The position numbers were made by a program, and so were the translations under genes. Below, piece by piece: positions 4,767-34,510 of a stretch of DNA of 64,000 nt. The notes under the pieces are model-generated. The model was not told the origin of the DNA. It was given only the letters and a program-made list of their open reading frames with translations, and did no database searches. Source of the stretch: Candidatus Poribacteria bacterium (GTDB lineage Bacteria; Poribacteria; WGA-4E; WGA-3G); contig JAJEAG010000005.1 of assembly GCA_022824265.1 (NCBI GenBank), forward strand, positions 1 to 64,000. The letters are read 5' to 3'. Position 1 is the stretch's first letter. Each line of letters starts with the position of its first letter.

Positions 4767-5498
4767 CTATTGTACTTTCACATAAGTACATAGGTCTCGG
4801 AGTGCGATAACAGTATAGTCATTCTCGGCAAGATATGACATATATGTGTCAAAATCTTTGGGTTCTGTGTGAACCCATGCATGTTCTAAATCTGGCACTC
4901 CATGAAATGTGAGTACCGCAATGTGACCATCTTTAGCTTGTTCAACAGCCCAAACAAAATCATCAAAATTCCAATTGGGTCCAGATGCCCCTGTGGTAGG
5001 TATCAAAAGTGGATGGTGATTAAGTGGGTCATAAGCAGGTCCACGTCCTCCTTCAGAATTGTATGAATACTCTGGAACAACGCCACGACGGGCAAAGTGG
5101 AATCCGTGTGCAGCTATAACCTTGACGGCGGCTTCATTATGACTATATCCTGGGTAACAAAATGTAGTCGGTTGCGAGATACCATATTCCAAACAGCGCG
5201 CATCAATATGTTGTAAGTCGTTCTTCAACTCTTCCTCAGGTTGTTGTGTAACATTACGGTGATGTTGTGTATGATTTCCAATTTCAAAACCATCATTATG
5301 TAATCCTTGGACCTCTTCCCATGTCATATATGCTTCTTTATTCTTTAGAAAACCAAGTCCTTCTGTTATATAAAAGGTTGCCCCAAAACCGTAATGTTTC
5401 AGAATTGGTACTACATAAGTCGATTGGGATTTACATCCATCATCAAATGTAAGGACAACAAGCTTATCTGGAATAGGTTCAGTCTCAATATAACACAC
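4767..5498 (-). CDS. Polysaccharide deacetylase family protein (NodB domain)
   Basis: About 243 residues. LVVLTFDDGCKSQ contains the NodB motif 1 TFDDG (catalytic base and metal Asp), IGNHTQHH is motif 2 (metal-binding His pair), and FCYPGYSHN is motif 3. The family removes N- or O-acetyl groups from chitin-like, peptidoglycan or exopolysaccharide chains. I place the start at a GTG (5498) because AAAGG lies nine bases upstream; a TTG three codons earlier abuts that sequence. No signal peptide is apparent, so a cytoplasmic or non-classically exported enzyme is possible, as in the small-molecule deacetylase branch. Confidence 0.82.
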   Translation of the reverse strand: MCYIETEPIPDKLVVLTFDDGCKSQSTYVVPILKHYGFGATFYITEGLGFLKNKEAYMTWEEVQGLHNDGFEIGNHTQHHRNVTQQPEEELKNDLQHIDARCLEYGISQPTTFCYPGYSHNEAAVKVIAAHGFHFARRGVVPEYSYNSEGGRGPAYDPLNHHPLLIPTTGASGPNWNFDDFVWAVEQAKDGHIAVLTFHGVPDLEHAWVHTEPKDFDTYMSYLAENDYTVIALRDLCTYVKVQ

Positions 5499-14634: not shown

Positions 14635-15396
14635 ATGAAAAAACGAGTATTACTTACAGGTGCTGCGGGAACAGTAGGTTCTTCCCTATGGCAAGCATGG
14701 GAACAGCAGGATATCTACTCACTTACCTTGATGGATATAAATCCGATTGAAGGGGCAAAATCACGTGTAGTACAGTCGGATATTCGTGACTATGCTGCAA
14801 TGCAGGAGTTGTGTCAAGGGCATGATATCCTTGTTCACCTTGCATACATACGACAAAATACAATCGGCAAAGTTCCTCGTGAAGTTAGCGATATAGACGT
14901 ATCAATGAACTTATTTGAGGCTGCACGGGAAGCTGGTATACAAAAGATTGTATATGCAAGCACCAATCATGTGTCTGGTTGGAATGAACGGTTGAGTTCA
15001 CCACCACGGTTCTCAACAGGTGATCAGTTTCGTCCTGATGGATGGTATGGGGCAATGAAAGGAATGGCAGAGATTGCAGGACGATACCTTGTTGATGCAT
15101 ACAATATGCGTTTCATTAGCATCCGTATTGGCAGCTATAACGGTACTTATGAACCAAATGACATACGTCACTGCAGCACACTGCTGACACCTCGCGATTG
15201 TGTACAACTGTTCACATTGGCTGTGGATTATGACGGACCCGTTCAATATCTAATCACCTACGGTCGTTCTGCGAACACAGATGGGTATCAGCAGAGTTAC
15301 CTTGATATAAGTGGTGCTGTTGAGGTATTAGGGTATGAGCCGCAGGACAACTTGATAAAGACACATCTGCATAAGTTTACAAAAAGTGAGTCATGA
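14635..15396 (+). CDS. NAD-dependent epimerase/dehydratase (extended SDR) family
   Basis: 253 residues. RVLLTGAAGTVGSSLW is the GxxGxxG nucleotide-binding loop, and DINP at the end of beta-2 suggests NAD. DILVHLAYI and YASTNHVSG are conserved core strands, and YGAMKGMAE supplies the catalytic YxxxK. The length and the NHV...SG block resemble uronate dehydrogenase-like members, but substrate assignment is a guess. Its ATGA overlap with trmB suggests co-transcription. Confidence 0.82.
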   Translation: MKKRVLLTGAAGTVGSSLWQAWEQQDIYSLTLMDINPIEGAKSRVVQSDIRDYAAMQELCQGHDILVHLAYIRQNTIGKVPREVSDIDVSMNLFEAAREAGIQKIVYASTNHVSGWNERLSSPPRFSTGDQFRPDGWYGAMKGMAEIAGRYLVDAYNMRFISIRIGSYNGTYEPNDIRHCSTLLTPRDCVQLFTLAVDYDGPVQYLITYGRSANTDGYQQSYLDISGAVEVLGYEPQDNLIKTHLHKFTKSES

Positions 15397-26975: not shown

Positions 26976-29900
26976 TCATCGGGTTGACGCATGTAATGTA
27001 GTTTCTAATTTACGTTTGAGTATTACACCCCATTGACCCACTACCCAGAGTGAATTCCCCTCTTTTGCTCGTGTTATAACATATAGGTTGTTGTCAATAT
27101 CAGTATGTTCTTGTTCCCATGTTTCACCTCCATCAGTTGAACGTATAATAGTCCCTTCATCTCCGACAGCATATATGACATCTTCTGAAAGAGCAAGAAT
27201 ACTGTTTAATGTTTTGGCATTGACGGATAATTGTGGTTGCCAAGTAAAACCGCCATCCACAGTCTTTAGAATAATTCCATCTTCTCCTACAGCCCATCCT
27301 TTTCTCTTAGTGGCAAATGATACTGCAAGTAAGTCAGACAGAGTAGTAGATTCGTGATATTTCCAATATTCACCACCGTTGATAGTTCTTTGGATTGCTC
27401 CACCTTGTCCAACTGCCCATCCAAGTGGTGCGAATTTCATATCAACACTTGTGAGTGTGTCGTTGACTGTGGTCCGTTGTAGCGTCCATGTGGGACCTCC
27501 GTCTTTGTTGTGAATGATGTCCCCAAATCTACCAACCGCCCATCCTTCTGAAAACTTACCAAAAACAACATCGTTCATTGAGTAGTTTCCTGGAGCCTCA
27601 CCTTCATAGAATGGAGGTCTTTCAGGGGTGTCACCTGCTGTCCAAGTATTTCCATCTGTGGTATATAGTACGGTTCCGTCACGACGCATCGTCCAACTCC
27701 ATTTTGGTTCAAGACTTGCGAAGTGAATACCGATAAGGCGTTGCCGTGGTTGGATTGCCAGTTTTTCCCATGTTTTTCCGCCATCCTGTGTTTCCATTAA
27801 TGTTCCATCATTATTTCCAATCCATCCAATCTTGTCATTGTAAAAAAGCACTTCACGGAAATCATTACGATCTTGCTCACCGAGTTGACGTTCCCATGTT
27901 TCGCCGCCATCTGTGGTGCGATATATACTCCCTGCACCTCCAACTGCCCATGCATGTTGTGTATCAAGAAAGAATACATTTGCAATTCCAGAAGCCGCTC
28001 TACTTCTAAACCGTCTTCTCGGTTCACGGGGTGGAGTAGGTTGTTGTCTTGATTGATCAGTCTGTTCAACGTTAGGTGGGATTGTCCCTTCAGGCGCAAG
28101 GCTGCCTGGTTGTTGCCGTTGCTGGCTTAACTGCCGTTGCAGTACATCAAATGGGGAGAATTCAGGTGATGTAGTTGATACTTCTTGATCGTCTGATTCA
28201 TCGTTTTCTGTTTCTACAGGAGTTTGTTCTACTGGTTGTTGTAACGCAACTCTACCATCACCAGTATTTATGAAAATGGGTTTCCAATTTAATCCTTGGT
28301 CCTTCGTAATATAAACGCTACCACCACCAATACCCCAGGCATCTGTATGCGAATTGAATGTAATATTGCGTAACCCTCGTGTGCTCTGAGATGCAGCTTG
28401 CATTTTCCATGTTTCTCCGCCATCACCTGTTAGCAAAGAGTTTCCATCCCCAAGTATTACCCAACCATTCATTTCATCTTGAAAGTGTACTGCTATGCCT
28501 GCTTGATTAGTTTTTGTTTGTATTTTCCAGTAATTTCCACCATCTACAGTGTGTAGAATGAAACCACCATCTCGTCGTTGTGGAGCAACTGCCCATCCTT
28601 CTAAACTATTAATAAAATGAAGGTCTGTTATGTTAGCATTTGTCGTCCCAGTTTTCTGGACTTTCCAAGTTTTTCCACCGTCGTTTGTGTGTACTATTTG
28701 TCCAATTGATGCCCCAAGCCATCCTTCATCTTTACTGATGAACTGCATCATAGTCATCCGTGGTAAGTTTTGTTGAGTTGTTCTTACCATTGGTTTCCAC
28801 GATTCGCCACCGTTGTTTGTTTGAAGTAGAATACCTGATCCAAGAATAAATCCATTTTGTTTATCTATAAATTCAACTTCTCGTAAATTGGCACTAACCC
28901 CACTATGTTGAGGTAGCCATGTTTCTCCACCATCAGTTGTACGTGCAATTACTCCACCAGAACCGACTGTCCATCCATTTGCTTCATCTATAAAATGTGT
29001 GTCTGCAAAATTTGTTCTCCAAGTTGCCTGTCGAATTATATCCCAGTGGTAGACAACCGGAACAATAGGTGTCTCCTCTTCAGCAACTATAATTTCTGGT
29101 TCGGTAGCCACAGGTGGTAAGTTTGTCGGCAATTGAACATTATCAACTGTATATCGCATTGCGATTCCACCTTTACCTACAGCGACCACTCCATCAGGTG
29201 AAAGAGCTAATCCGTAAAGATCGTTCTCTGTACCGCTTTTTTGAAGTTCCCATTTTTTACCGCTGTTTATAGTGGTTAACATGACTCCGTCATCACCGAC
29301 AATTAAACCGTGCTGTGTATCTGAAAAATAGAGTTTATTTAGGTTTTTTTGTGTCCCGCTGTGTTGGACATTCCAATCTTTACCACCATTTTTTGTGTGT
29401 AGTATTTCACCAAATTGACCAACAATCCATCCGTTGTTTTCATCAACGAAGTATACAGCATATAGTTCATTAAAAGTATCTGTATCTTGTTTATTCCAAG
29501 TCAGACCCCCATCTTCGGTTGCAAGGCATACACCGGGCCAACCGATTGTCCATCCTCTTTTTTCATCAAGGAAAAACACGCCTTTTAACATAATTGCATG
29601 AAAATCACCGATAGGAATTTGTGGAAGCCAAGTATTTCCACCATTTATTGTGTGCATTATTGTGCCGACATCTCCAACAATCCATCCGACTTTTTCATTG
29701 ACAAAATGCACAGCCCGAAGTGTAAATTGTGAAGAACCACGTTGTGGTTCCCATTTTGTACCTCCATCTGTAGTATGGATAATAAGTCCACGATCACCAA
29801 CTGCCCAACCGTGTTTATCGGTTGCAAAGTAGATATTCCAAATTCCATCCCAGATTTCTGAATCCAATTCTGTCCATGTTTCTCCACCATCATTGGTTGT

Positions 29901-31013
29901 CACCATCGTTCCACCCTTACCCACAGCAATAGCACGGTTAGCATCTGTAAACTGTACATTCTGTAGGTCATTTGCTGTTGTACCGCTAACCATCTCCCAG
30001 GTCTTACCTGCGTCCTTGGTGTGCATAATGGTGCCTGACCAACCGATTGCCCATGCCTCATTTCGTGTGGTGAACTGGACACCAGTCAAATTATTTTCTA
30101 TACCGCTCTCCATCAATTGCCAGTTATCGCCACCGTCTTCTGTGCGTGTAATGAATCCTATATCTGACACAGCAATACCGAAATTTCTATCTGCAAAATG
30201 GATAGAGTTAATAGTCTCTCGGACGTGTCCATTGATCAGTGGAATACGACTATCCTGTTTCTCCCAATTTACACCCGCTGATGTGGTATGGAAAATCGAT
30301 CCATCACTCCCAGCAATCCACCCTACATTATCACTGATGAAAAACACATGTTTGTTGTCATTAATTAATCGGTCACGTTCACCTTCAAAGCGGTTGCTCT
30401 GTTCTTGCCATGATTCACCACCGTTTGTGGTATGAAAAATTCTATCATAGGTGCCAACCGTCCATCCTCTGTAATTATCAGCGAAGTAGACACCGTTTAG
30501 TGGGAATTCACTTACATGTTGATATCGATTCCATGATCTCCCACCATTTTTTGTGTAAAGGACATCAGAATCTTCACCAACAACCCATCCTTGTTTCCCG
30601 TTTGAAAAGAAGACATCACGTAACATCGCAGAAGAACCACTTTTTTGCAAACTCCAGAATCTACCACCATCATCGGTTGTTGCGATAAGTCCATTATCTC
30701 CGACCGCCCATCCATCTTTTTCATTTGCAAAATAGACAGCCTTGAAATCACCAGTAGTATTTACTTCCTGCTTCTGCCATGTTTTTCCACCGTCTGGAGT
30801 ATGTACAATTGTACCACCAAGTCCAACTAACCATCCTTTATTAGCGTTTACAAAGTGTAGATCGGTGAAGTTTGTTTCCCAATCGGCTTTACGTACTGCT
30901 TCCATCTTTACACAACCGTTGATAAGGATCATAACTCCAAGAATAAAGAGAGCTGTAGTTGTAATAAGAGTTGTGTTGTTTCTTAGTGACATCTTCTGGT
31001 ATTTAAATTGCAT
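26976..31013 (-). CDS. Giant Ycf48/BNR-repeat lipoprotein (about 26 Asp-box-like repeats)
   Basis: 1345 residues; the ATG at 31013 has GGAGG upstream. A signal peptide ends in lipobox LINGC (Cys34), so it is a surface or periplasmic lipoprotein. The rest consists of about 45-residue repeats of the form GWxVGxxGxIxHTxDGGxTW. I count about 26 DGGxTW-like boxes, 13 before a short Pro-rich break near 640, six in a second block and seven after a Gln/Pro/Arg-rich linker near 955-1010. The segment after the first break (ATWRTNFADTHF) repeats the mature N terminus (ADWETNFTDLHF), indicating propeller duplication. Ycf48 helps assemble photosystem II; in non-phototrophs such proteins are of unknown function, plausibly adhesion or glycan binding. 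Confidence 0.85.
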   Translation of the reverse strand: MQFKYQKMSLRNNTTLITTTALFILGVMILINGCVKMEAVRKADWETNFTDLHFVNANKGWLVGLGGTIVHTPDGGKTWQKQEVNTTGDFKAVYFANEKDGWAVGDNGLIATTDDGGRFWSLQKSGSSAMLRDVFFSNGKQGWVVGEDSDVLYTKNGGRSWNRYQHVSEFPLNGVYFADNYRGWTVGTYDRIFHTTNGGESWQEQSNRFEGERDRLINDNKHVFFISDNVGWIAGSDGSIFHTTSAGVNWEKQDSRIPLINGHVRETINSIHFADRNFGIAVSDIGFITRTEDGGDNWQLMESGIENNLTGVQFTTRNEAWAIGWSGTIMHTKDAGKTWEMVSGTTANDLQNVQFTDANRAIAVGKGGTMVTTNDGGETWTELDSEIWDGIWNIYFATDKHGWAVGDRGLIIHTTDGGTKWEPQRGSSQFTLRAVHFVNEKVGWIVGDVGTIMHTINGGNTWLPQIPIGDFHAIMLKGVFFLDEKRGWTIGWPGVCLATEDGGLTWNKQDTDTFNELYAVYFVDENNGWIVGQFGEILHTKNGGKDWNVQHSGTQKNLNKLYFSDTQHGLIVGDDGVMLTTINSGKKWELQKSGTENDLYGLALSPDGVVAVGKGGIAMRYTVDNVQLPTNLPPVATEPEIIVAEEETPIVPVVYHWDIIRQATWRTNFADTHFIDEANGWTVGSGGVIARTTDGGETWLPQHSGVSANLREVEFIDKQNGFILGSGILLQTNNGGESWKPMVRTTQQNLPRMTMMQFISKDEGWLGASIGQIVHTNDGGKTWKVQKTGTTNANITDLHFINSLEGWAVAPQRRDGGFILHTVDGGNYWKIQTKTNQAGIAVHFQDEMNGWVILGDGNSLLTGDGGETWKMQAASQSTRGLRNITFNSHTDAWGIGGGSVYITKDQGLNWKPIFINTGDGRVALQQPVEQTPVETENDESDDQEVSTTSPEFSPFDVLQRQLSQQRQQPGSLAPEGTIPPNVEQTDQSRQQPTPPREPRRRFRSRAASGIANVFFLDTQHAWAVGGAGSIYRTTDGGETWERQLGEQDRNDFREVLFYNDKIGWIGNNDGTLMETQDGGKTWEKLAIQPRQRLIGIHFASLEPKWSWTMRRDGTVLYTTDGNTWTAGDTPERPPFYEGEAPGNYSMNDVVFGKFSEGWAVGRFGDIIHNKDGGPTWTLQRTTVNDTLTSVDMKFAPLGWAVGQGGAIQRTINGGEYWKYHESTTLSDLLAVSFATKRKGWAVGEDGIILKTVDGGFTWQPQLSVNAKTLNSILALSEDVIYAVGDEGTIIRSTDGGETWEQEHTDIDNNLYVITRAKEGNSLWVVGQWGVILKRKLETTLHASTR

Positions 31014-32911: not shown

Positions 32912-34510
32912 ATGGACATATTGAGATTAACGTTCTTGAAGTATTTTGGGATTATTCTATTCTGTTTTGTCTTGTGGAGTCCACTTGTGGTAGCAGACAA
33001 TCATGGAAAAGAAGAACCCGTGAGTTATTATAAACAGATTCTTCCGTTGCTCAAACGGAGTTGTCAAGGATGCCATCATCCCGGTGATCCAAATGGTGAC
33101 TTGATTGTGACATCTTATGATGAACTGAAACGGGGAGGAATGGCAGGGGAAGCGATTATCCCTGGAAAACCTGATGAAAGTCTCATCATTGAGCTCATTT
33201 CTGGCGACCCTCCCGCAATGCCCCAGAACCAAGAACCACTTACTATAGATGAGATAGACCTATTCAAACGTTGGATTCTTGAGGGGGCAAAAGACGATAC
33301 ACCTGAGAAAACTAACGATGTTGGAGAGGGAAACTATCCGAAATATACTGTGCCACCGGTAGTTTCTGCGATGGCATTTTCTCCTGATGGTACTACACTT
33401 GCTGTATCAGGCGTTGGTGAAGTATTGTTGTATGATTCTGTTACTTTGGAAATCAAAGCACGATTGGTAGGCAATGCCCGTCGCATACAATCCATTGTAT
33501 ATACAAATGAGGGCAAAATACTCGGTATTGCTGGTGGATCTCCCGCACAATTTGGTGAAGTACAGTTGTGGGATACTACTACAAACAAACTTGTCAAAGC
33601 AATTCGATCTACTTTTGATACTATCTACGGACTCTCATTCTCACCAAATTCCAGTCGTGTCGCATTCGGATCATCTGATCATACGGTGCGAGTTATTTCT
33701 ATTGCGGATGAAAAGGAACTTGTGAAATTCGACAATCACAGTGACTGGGTTTTTGGTACGGTTTTTTCTACGGATGGATCACACTTTGTCAGTTGTAGTC
33801 GTGACACAGCACTTAAGTTGGTGGAGGTAGATACAGGTTCGTTTGTTGATGATGTGAACTCAAGCAATAAAGGCTATGGAGAAATCAATGCAATTGCACG
33901 ACATCCGAATGCAGACCAAGTTTTGAGTGTCGGAGAAGACAGAATTCCACGGTTATACAAAATGTTCCGTGAAACTCGGAGAGATGTAGGGAATACAGAT
34001 TTCAACCTAATTAGAGCGTATGAAGCACAAGGTGGGTCAATTGATGCTGTTGCGTTTTCTACAGATGGCAATAAATTTGCAGTGGGAAGTTCCGCAGGTG
34101 AAGCACGTATATATAATGTATCAGACGGAAAACGTCTATTATCTATGCAAGGTGATACCGTAGGAATATTTGCTCTTGCGTTTCATCCTGATGGAACGAA
34201 ACTCGCTACGGGTGGATTTGATGGTAAGATCCGTGTGTTTGACGCTAACTCAGGCAAACAACTACATATTTTTATGTCAGTGCCAATAGAAACTGATGCA
34301 AGTGAAGAACTTACTTTAGCTGTATCGGGTATGACGTGAGGGGTTTGTGTTGAAAAAGTGCAGGATGCACTTACAAAACATCAGAATGTGATTAGTGCTG
34401 AAGTTTCTCTACCAGATCAAGCGGTCATTAAGGTACGGAAGGATAGTGTTTCGGTTGATGAACTTACGAATGTAATTAAGACAGCGGGATTTACTGCTAC
34501 TGCTAAGTAA
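32912..34510 (+). CDS. Probable selenoprotein: cytochrome c - WD40 - HMA (UxxC) fusion
   Basis: 532 residues if the TGA at 34337 is read as selenocysteine (Sec476); standard gene callers would stop at 34339. Domains in order: signal peptide (about 1-28), planctomycete-type cytochrome c with CQGCH at 51-55 and distal Met in PAMPQNQ, a WD40-like propeller (about 150-440; AFSPDGTTLAVSG, SFSPNSSRVAFGS, AFHPDGTKLATGG), then an HMA domain. The HMA reads LAVSGMT, TGA, GVCVEKVQDAL, and continues through ISAEVSLPDQAVIKV to IKTAGFTATAK before TAA. The TGA lies exactly at the first Cys of GMTCxxC, giving UxxC with Cys479. A hairpin fits SECIS spacing. Expected role: periplasmic heme protein with a metal- or redox-active C terminus. 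TGA ends three other genes in the window normally, so this is not a reassigned code. A recent nonsense mutation is the main alternative. Confidence 0.8.
34344..34377 (+). promoter_or_regulatory. Putative bacterial SECIS element
   Basis: AAGTGCA (34356-34362), loop GGA (34363-34365), TGCACTT (34366-34372): a perfect 7-bp stem with G at the start of the apical loop. There are 23 nt between the TGA and the loop, inside the 16-37 nt window known for bacterial SECIS elements. A lower stem TTTGT / ACAAA (34344-34348 / 34373-34377) encloses it with a seven-base bulge on the 5' side only. It lies wholly inside the coding frame of the HMA domain. Confidence 0.65.

Follow-up and report, generated by a model that had tools for sequence, protein, structure and literature searches.

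A predicted selenocysteine in the heavy-metal-associated domain of a haem c-WD40 propeller protein of Poribacteria

Described relatives of the domain and of the propeller

Selenocysteine (Sec) has been recorded before in domains with the heavy-metal-associated (HMA) fold. A Sec-containing 'Mercuric transport protein MerP' is listed in the GOS survey (PMC2398784). Together with the NCBIfam models NF041115 and NF045683 this agrees with the preliminary description of the present locus, which had pointed to Sec forms of HMA/MerP-like domains in marine surveys. By its name, the listed MerP is an HMA-fold protein. The MerP model TIGR02052 gave 31.6-32.6 bits with our protein, below its cut-off of 92.55.

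NF041115 (UxxU_metal_bind, a metal-binding (seleno)protein) is entered in a table of PMC13188914 as 'putative mercuric reductase' with a UxxU motif and two Sec residues. Like the protein described here, it combines an HMA-like domain with a Sec residue in the metal-binding motif. However, the model covers 74 positions and has UxxU, whereas in our protein UxxC follows a haem domain and a WD40 propeller, and the scores of 37.1 bits for the full protein and 39.8 bits for the tail stayed below the cut-off of 95. In NF045683 (MerT/CopZ fusion-like heavy metal transport selenoprotein) a CopZ/HMA-like part also belongs to a selenoprotein fusion, but the partner is, by name, the MerT transporter. The WD40-HMA protein is not among the matches of this model; two lipoprotein-like sister proteins from the same genome match its CopZ/HMA-like part with 44.4 and 29.3 bits (cut-off 375). 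With three CopZ models 34.1-41.5 bits were obtained against cut-offs of 85-95, and among the 13 NCBIfam families listed for the haem-WD40-HMA protein no cut-off was reached. The HMA domains of CopZ, MerP and copper ATPases share the fold and the position of the metal motif, but there the motif is CxxC.

The amino-terminal part resembles proteins with a planctomycete-type cytochrome c (PSCyt1) and WD40 repeats, of which PSCyt genes of Verrucomicrobia are described in PMC5615132. Such proteins were found at the loci L081-L101, mostly from Verrucomicrobia, and have the same haem domain and propeller at about 40-47% identity. Their match to the query ends at residue 468 at the latest, so it does not extend to the HMA/Sec tail. 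Our protein has both PF07635 and CxxCH, the features that define this cytochrome type.

The accessible part of the 2026 catalogue PMC13188914 makes no mention of WD40, HMA, PF00403, PF00400 or Poribacteri. A literature search returned nothing that joins selenoprotein with Poribacteria, or selenocysteine with WD40 and heavy metal-associated. Work on selenoprotein with heavy-metal-associated domain (honey bee genes) does not describe the haem-WD40-HMA protein, and neither does that on selenocysteine with Poribacteria, of which one paper names SelA/SelB. Sec in HMA-like domains is already known, whereas these searches gave no description of the predicted haem c-propeller-Sec-HMA architecture.

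The reading frame and the codon at residue 476

The window, i.e. the whole stretch of DNA that was analysed, comprises 64,000 nucleotides (64 kb). The gene has the following features.

32912..34510, + strand: full predicted selenoprotein gene, 532 residues including Sec476; the standard-code ORF 32912-34339 has 475 residues
32912..32998, + strand: N-terminal hydrophobic segment, predicted export signal, approximate boundary (sequence; AlphaFold2 helix 2-28)
33062..33076, + strand: CQGCH covalent haem c motif of the planctomycete-type cytochrome c domain PF07635 (alignment; precomputed annotation)
33350..34276, + strand: WD40 beta-propeller, approximate boundaries (Pfam WD40 repeats; model matches PDB propellers)
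34313..34492, + strand: HMA domain PF00403, interrupted by the TGA (profile score; predicted beta-alpha-beta-beta-alpha-beta)
34337..34339, + strand: TGA predicted to be read as Sec476, which opens the UxxC metal motif (codon comparison over 56 related loci)
34346..34348, + strand: second metal-motif cysteine, Cys479 (TGT); the codon is TGT or TGC in all 54 distinct TGA sequences, own included
34356..34372, + strand: bacterial SECIS-like stem-loop of 7 bp with the apical loop GGA at 34363-34365 (folding, conservation, bSECIS constraints)
34508..34510, + strand: TAA stop codon of the full-length frame (reading frame)

The TGA at 34337-34339 closes the ORF, and the same frame then runs for 56 sense codons to the TAA, exactly as the preliminary description had it. 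Around residue 476 the readthrough protein reads ...LAVSGMT-U-GVCVEKV..., and the frame bore out the claim that the TGA falls precisely on the first cysteine of GMTCxxC with the second cysteine intact. A complete HMA domain had been proposed to lie beyond the TGA. The 65-residue tail with Cys for the TGA scored 41.6 bits against PF00403 (Pfam cut-off 24.8), and 31.8 bits were reached with the one TGA inside the domain. Score and motif thus place the tail among the HMA domains, with U-x-x-C as the encoded motif.

The AlphaFold2 model, calculated with Cys replacing Sec, had a mean pLDDT of 85.9 and gave the tail an HMA fold with a strand at 464-472, a helix at 477-489, strands at 493-499 and 503-509, a helix at 515-524 and a strand at 528-531; residue 476 immediately precedes the first helix. 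The model is poor at residues 52-58 of the haem motif (pLDDT < 50). The best PDB match found by Foldseek was the propeller 5yzv_B (E 1e-24), and the matches listed were propellers only, with nothing on the HMA part. By sequence, the solved chains nearest to the tail are the HMA domains of copper ATPases, MerP and CopZ. The cytochrome domain PF07635 is the precomputed domain of P0002, a protein identical to the 475-residue form, and C51, C54 and H55 of the CxxCH motif are invariant in 34 of 34 aligned sequences.

The UGA might be read as another amino acid, either by a reassigned code or by general readthrough. Of 42 ORFs picked from 58 in the window, however, 24 end with TAA, 12 with TAG and 6 with TGA, which shows that TGA is a working stop here. 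The ordinary TGA stops at 15396, 16091 and 63246, cited earlier against a reassigned code, are real. No evidence favouring another amino acid was found; Cys is the only alternative codon in the relatives, and tRNA-Sec, selA, selB and selD are present in the genome. A reassigned code was rejected on these grounds and is extremely improbable.

The codon was then compared between relatives. A scan of one genome per species for close relatives of the full protein gave 87 loci, of which 80 were retained. The codon count covers the 59 Poribacteria loci among them (L022-L080), and here the HMA tail was present in 56, with TGA at the position of residue 476 in 54, TGT in L072 and TGC in L073. An in-frame TGA that aligns with Cys in homologues is a mark of bacterial selenoproteins, and the Cys/Sec pairs that the preliminary description had expected from such an alignment were thus observed. 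The nearest relative is a Candidatus Poribacteria MAG with 96% identity, and the identity of the tail-bearing loci reaches down to 52-53%.

A sequencing or assembly error at one base could be suspected in a sequence taken from one draft assembly of 100 contigs, but the same TGA occurs in 54 related loci of other records. This explanation was rejected and its probability is practically negligible. The outcome that had been named as a refutation, a normal Cys codon in the relatives beside a lone erroneous TGA, did not occur, with TGA in 54 of the 56 loci.

If the TGA were a true stop, the tail would be a decaying remnant or a separate reading frame. The use of TGA as an ordinary stop in 6 of the 42 ORFs fits this reading. 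Against it, the median dN/dS beyond the TGA was 0.145 at a median dS of about 1, computed over 1167 of 1326 pairs after those with an unusable or saturated synonymous distance were dropped. In addition, 54 of 56 loci retain TGA and the other two have Cys, the stem-loop behind this codon is conserved, and the stretch from the TGA to the second metal cysteine offers no ATG, GTG or TTG in frame. The pseudogene or true-stop reading is contradicted by dN/dS, codon pattern and stem-loop comparison; it was rejected and we regard it as very improbable.

Automated annotation had been expected to truncate the gene. When 7997 candidates from the protein collection were scored, the best 120 of 3893 matches were 440-494 residues long and covered at most 89% of the query, and the tail was absent from all of these 120. 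A database search with residues 440-532 found 11 proteins, in each of which the coverage stops before the TGA, and no Cys-form fusion with the tail.

The loci L078-L080 of Poribacteria encode proteins that stop shortly after the propeller and have no HMA domain. They bear on the possibility that the UGA is a leaky selenium-dependent switch, in which the 475-residue propeller form and the 532-residue selenoprotein are both normal products and selenium sets their ratio. The short form is plausible as a working protein in view of L078-L080 and of the Verrucomicrobia, Acidobacteria and Chthonomonadaceae MAG matches, which all end by residue 468. In bacteria, UGA decoding competes with termination, which also favours a switch. 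The purifying selection on the tail argues that the long form matters, although it is compatible with a short form as well. We consider such a switch somewhat unlikely. As to whether Sec or Cys is the ancestral state, a tree of 34 propeller sequences, on which the three states require 4 changes, favours neither; its deepest forks are open and the outgroup branches are long.

Two observations concern the frames of individual relatives. In the divergent TGA forms L074-L076 a second TGA serves as the stop, which puts a predicted Sec TGA and a stop TGA into one frame. Another relative, L157 (G070:C53), has the WD40-HMA end with its TGA twice, at a distance of about 1 kb.

The SECIS-like stem-loop and the selenocysteine machinery

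The RNA codons from the UGA onwards are UGA GGG GUU UGU GUU GAA AAA GUG CAG GAU GCA CUU. Bases 20-26 pair with bases 30-36 around GGA, and the stem-loop has the form AGUGCA-GGN-UGCACU. The loop begins with GG, 23 nt after the UGA, and the folding energy is -10.8 kcal/mol over 46 nt. The constraints for a bacterial SECIS given in PMC13188914 are a loop of 3-9 nt with a G in the first two positions, a stem of 4-16 bp, a spacing of 16-37 nt and an energy of <= -7.5 kcal/mol, and the stem-loop of this gene agrees with all four. Many relatives had stem-loops of only -7.4 kcal/mol or weaker in a 32-nt window. Compared with shuffles, the folding of the single sequence was modestly lower and depended on the window, with z values of -2.1, -1.0 and -0.1 for 46, 76 and 84 nt, respectively; against synonymous shuffles the mean z was -1.7 over 55 sequences. 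The Rfam scan of the 64-kb window at gathering thresholds gave no match.

The conservation of the stem was examined at the codon level. The codons GUG, CAG and GCA are invariant in 54 distinct TGA sequences, while Val, Gln and Ala codons vary elsewhere. On the tree of 52 of the 55 TGA sequences, with L074-L076 left out as divergent, no synonymous third-base change was counted at codons +6 to +10. The 60 other codons had a mean of 7.1 synonymous changes with two codons at zero, and codon +11 at the foot of the stem had 6. Codon +9 encodes Asp, Gly or Ala, in the WD40 genes through its middle base, which is the last base of the loop.

For covariation, 70 distinct TGA sites were compared, sister HMA genes included, after merging of identical 45-mers and removal of frames that meet a stop less than 45 residues downstream. 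In this set 96.5% of the cells pair. Two-sided changes occur in 10 cells, a number reached by 0 of 500 shuffles, though such counts may be inflated by the relatedness of the sites; controls slid along the sequence gave 6-7 two-sided cells against the 10 at the true stem. Three of the covariation measures exceed all 500 shuffles and two do not (201/500 and 29/500), the number of pairs with a two-sided change being unremarkable (201 of 500 shuffles). The outermost pair fails in 13 of the 70 sites. The loop-closing A-U is replaced by a compensatory G-C in five sequences, and these changes come from sister HMA genes, since the five inner pairs never vary in the WD40 genes.

Both Cys forms have GCG in place of the conserved GCA, and their loops lack the GG, although one of them, L072, can still make six pairs with wobbles. 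In the array protein L156 the stem of the one domain with Cys is closed at the loop by a mismatched A-C pair.

The search of the organism's own genome for selA, selB, selC (tRNA-Sec) and selD, which the preliminary description had suggested, found all four above the family cut-offs. The assembly is a draft of 4.45 Mb in 100 contigs and is 96.66% complete. The tRNA-Sec scored 78.1 bits and was given the anticodon tca by ARAGORN. The selB match (353.8 bits) is on the same contig and ends about 60 bases before the tRNA, and selA and selD scored 608.8 and 361.8 bits. A genome that encodes tRNA-Sec, SelA, SelB and SelD has the set expected of a bacterium with selenoproteins. The selD gene has an in-frame TGA of its own in CAG-U-ASK (L107:2754-2756, contig C8).

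For the related genomes, 50 of the 59 Poribacteria loci were taken in and 49 genomes were searched, with L036 left out. tRNA-Sec was found in 42 of the 49, namely in 38 of the 44 genomes with the TGA form, in both genomes with the Cys form and in 2 of the 3 that lack the tail. The six TGA genomes that gave no tRNA-Sec are possibly incomplete. Six of the genomes searched are recorded as 'chromosome: 1' (L031, L039, L051, L053, L058, L070), and all of them have tRNA-Sec.

The reading frame, the domains, the Cys/TGA pairs, the full Sec gene set and a conserved stem-loop at the right distance make Sec decoding very likely. Judged from the sequence, we are highly confident that the TGA at 34337-34339 is read as selenocysteine, and the earlier proposal of Sec at this codon is supported by the sel genes, the pairs and the stem-loop. 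The stem-loop would recruit SelB, which would deliver Sec-tRNA at the UGA.

Sister HMA genes, gene neighbourhood and proposed role

Three of the four HMA matches in the own genome contain one TGA. The fourth keeps Cys (GMHCENC); judged by eye on its motifs, it is a P-type ATPase-like protein. On contig C70 two small HMA genes with a lipoprotein-like start lie in tandem (L106:4657-5040 and 5132-5473, + strand); both have the TGA at the first metal cysteine, i.e. U-x-x-C, and a similar SECIS-like stem-loop. A further frame of this locus (L106:660-1397, - strand) is redoxin-like with one TGA in GG-U-PFC and was judged by eye to be a candidate selenoprotein.

The distribution of such sites was followed with the nucleotide pattern TGA-N6-TGY-N9-GTGCRGNNNGCAC. 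It gave 123 sites by summation, as matches at the nucleotide level, and these are spread over 49 of 59 genomes including the own one; the reversed control gave 0 sites. In the family to which the window belongs, 30 of 35 genomes have two sites 390-620 bases apart, counted by hand. G068 and G069 of the same family have three sites about 220 bases apart within one array protein, and the ten 'same class' genomes have no pattern site. The array proteins L156 (310-1257, + strand) and L168 each contain three U-x-x-C and one C-x-x-C HMA domain. The scanned part of L156 passes several curated cut-offs, including that of NF041115 (147.2 bits, cut-off 95), because the scores of the four domains add up.

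Among the HMA matches listed in the relatives, a hand count gave at least 41 with one TGA only, one with TGA and TAG, one with TAG and none with TAA. Some relatives (e.g. L117 and L123) have stop-free HMA domains in short frames, so the Sec form is not the sole small HMA protein in the group. Under the strict pattern eight of 30 HMA regions (L138, L139, L142, L155, L162, L163, L165, L167) had no site. A looser pattern showed TGA at the metal cysteine in L138, L139, L142, L162 and L167 and Cys in L165, and L155 and L163 had no site even then. In L162 (G100:C129) the HMA frame has the TGA at the metal cysteine and a TAG eight codons on, inside the expected stem region.

The neighbourhood of the WD40-HMA gene is partly conserved. 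Among those of the 51 main-clade loci that have enough flank, 43 of 46 have a sulfatase downstream of the gene and 29 of 40 have YceI on its upstream side. A YCF48/BNR-type repeat protein lies nearby in 23 of the 40 main-clade loci whose upstream flank is long enough, and in the window a 1345-residue protein of such repeats (PF14870, 13 stretches) is encoded at 26976-31013 on the - strand. At the 8 divergent loci a DUF1549/DUF1553 gene follows in 6 of 7, and sulfatase (0/7) and YceI (0/6) were not seen. Genes of these kinds, sulfatase and DUF1549/DUF1553 (PSCyt2/PSD1), are described in PMC5615132 from the vicinity of planctomycete-type cytochromes. Among the annotated neighbours no metal-resistance gene was recognised, and a role with metals rests accordingly on the HMA domain alone. 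The neighbours do not name the function.

Readthrough would join a predicted exported haem c and WD40 propeller protein to a C-terminal U-x-x-C HMA domain. The finished protein would act outside the cytoplasm, a place to which the N-terminus and the haem motif point. In HMA domains soft metals are held by the two cysteines, and the affinity of a selenolate for Cu(I) and Hg(II) exceeds that of a thiolate. The selenolate-thiolate pair may therefore bind a soft metal ion (Cu(I), Hg(II) or similar) tighter than two thiols, with the haem domain and the propeller as redox partner and scaffold.

Alternatively, Sec is used but the U-x-x-C forms a selenenylsulphide redox centre in electron exchange with the haem and is not a metal site. 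UxxC is common in the redox selenoproteins tabulated in PMC13188914, and here it stands in the same chain as an invariant CxxCH haem motif. On the other side, the domain has the HMA fold, whose solved representatives carry metals, and models of metal chaperones match it, although below their cut-offs. We regard the redox centre as a real possibility that falls short of an even chance. Metal capture or hand-over is taken as likelier than pure redox catalysis because HMA domains bind soft metals and selenolate does so more strongly. Fold and motif suggest a metal-binding role for the Sec-HMA domain, which we consider an evenly balanced call.

As a speculative proposal that we think unlikely, Poribacteria may have a lineage-wide selenium metal-handling system outside the cytoplasm. 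In such a system the predicted exported HMA domains (the WD40-haem fusion, the tandem lipoproteins and the three-Sec arrays of relatives) would use Sec-x-x-Cys with one shared SECIS type, the P-type ATPase would keep Cys, and the UGA of the WD40 gene would be a selenium-dependent switch between a propeller-only and a metal-binding form.

Protein prediction cuts the haem c-propeller-Sec-HMA architecture at the UGA, as the tail-less best 120 homologues illustrate. Together with its sister genes, the locus suggests that Poribacteria possess a set of metal domains that use selenium and are probably exported, and the HMA-TGA genes are concrete candidates for the purpose of the Sec machinery in these bacteria.
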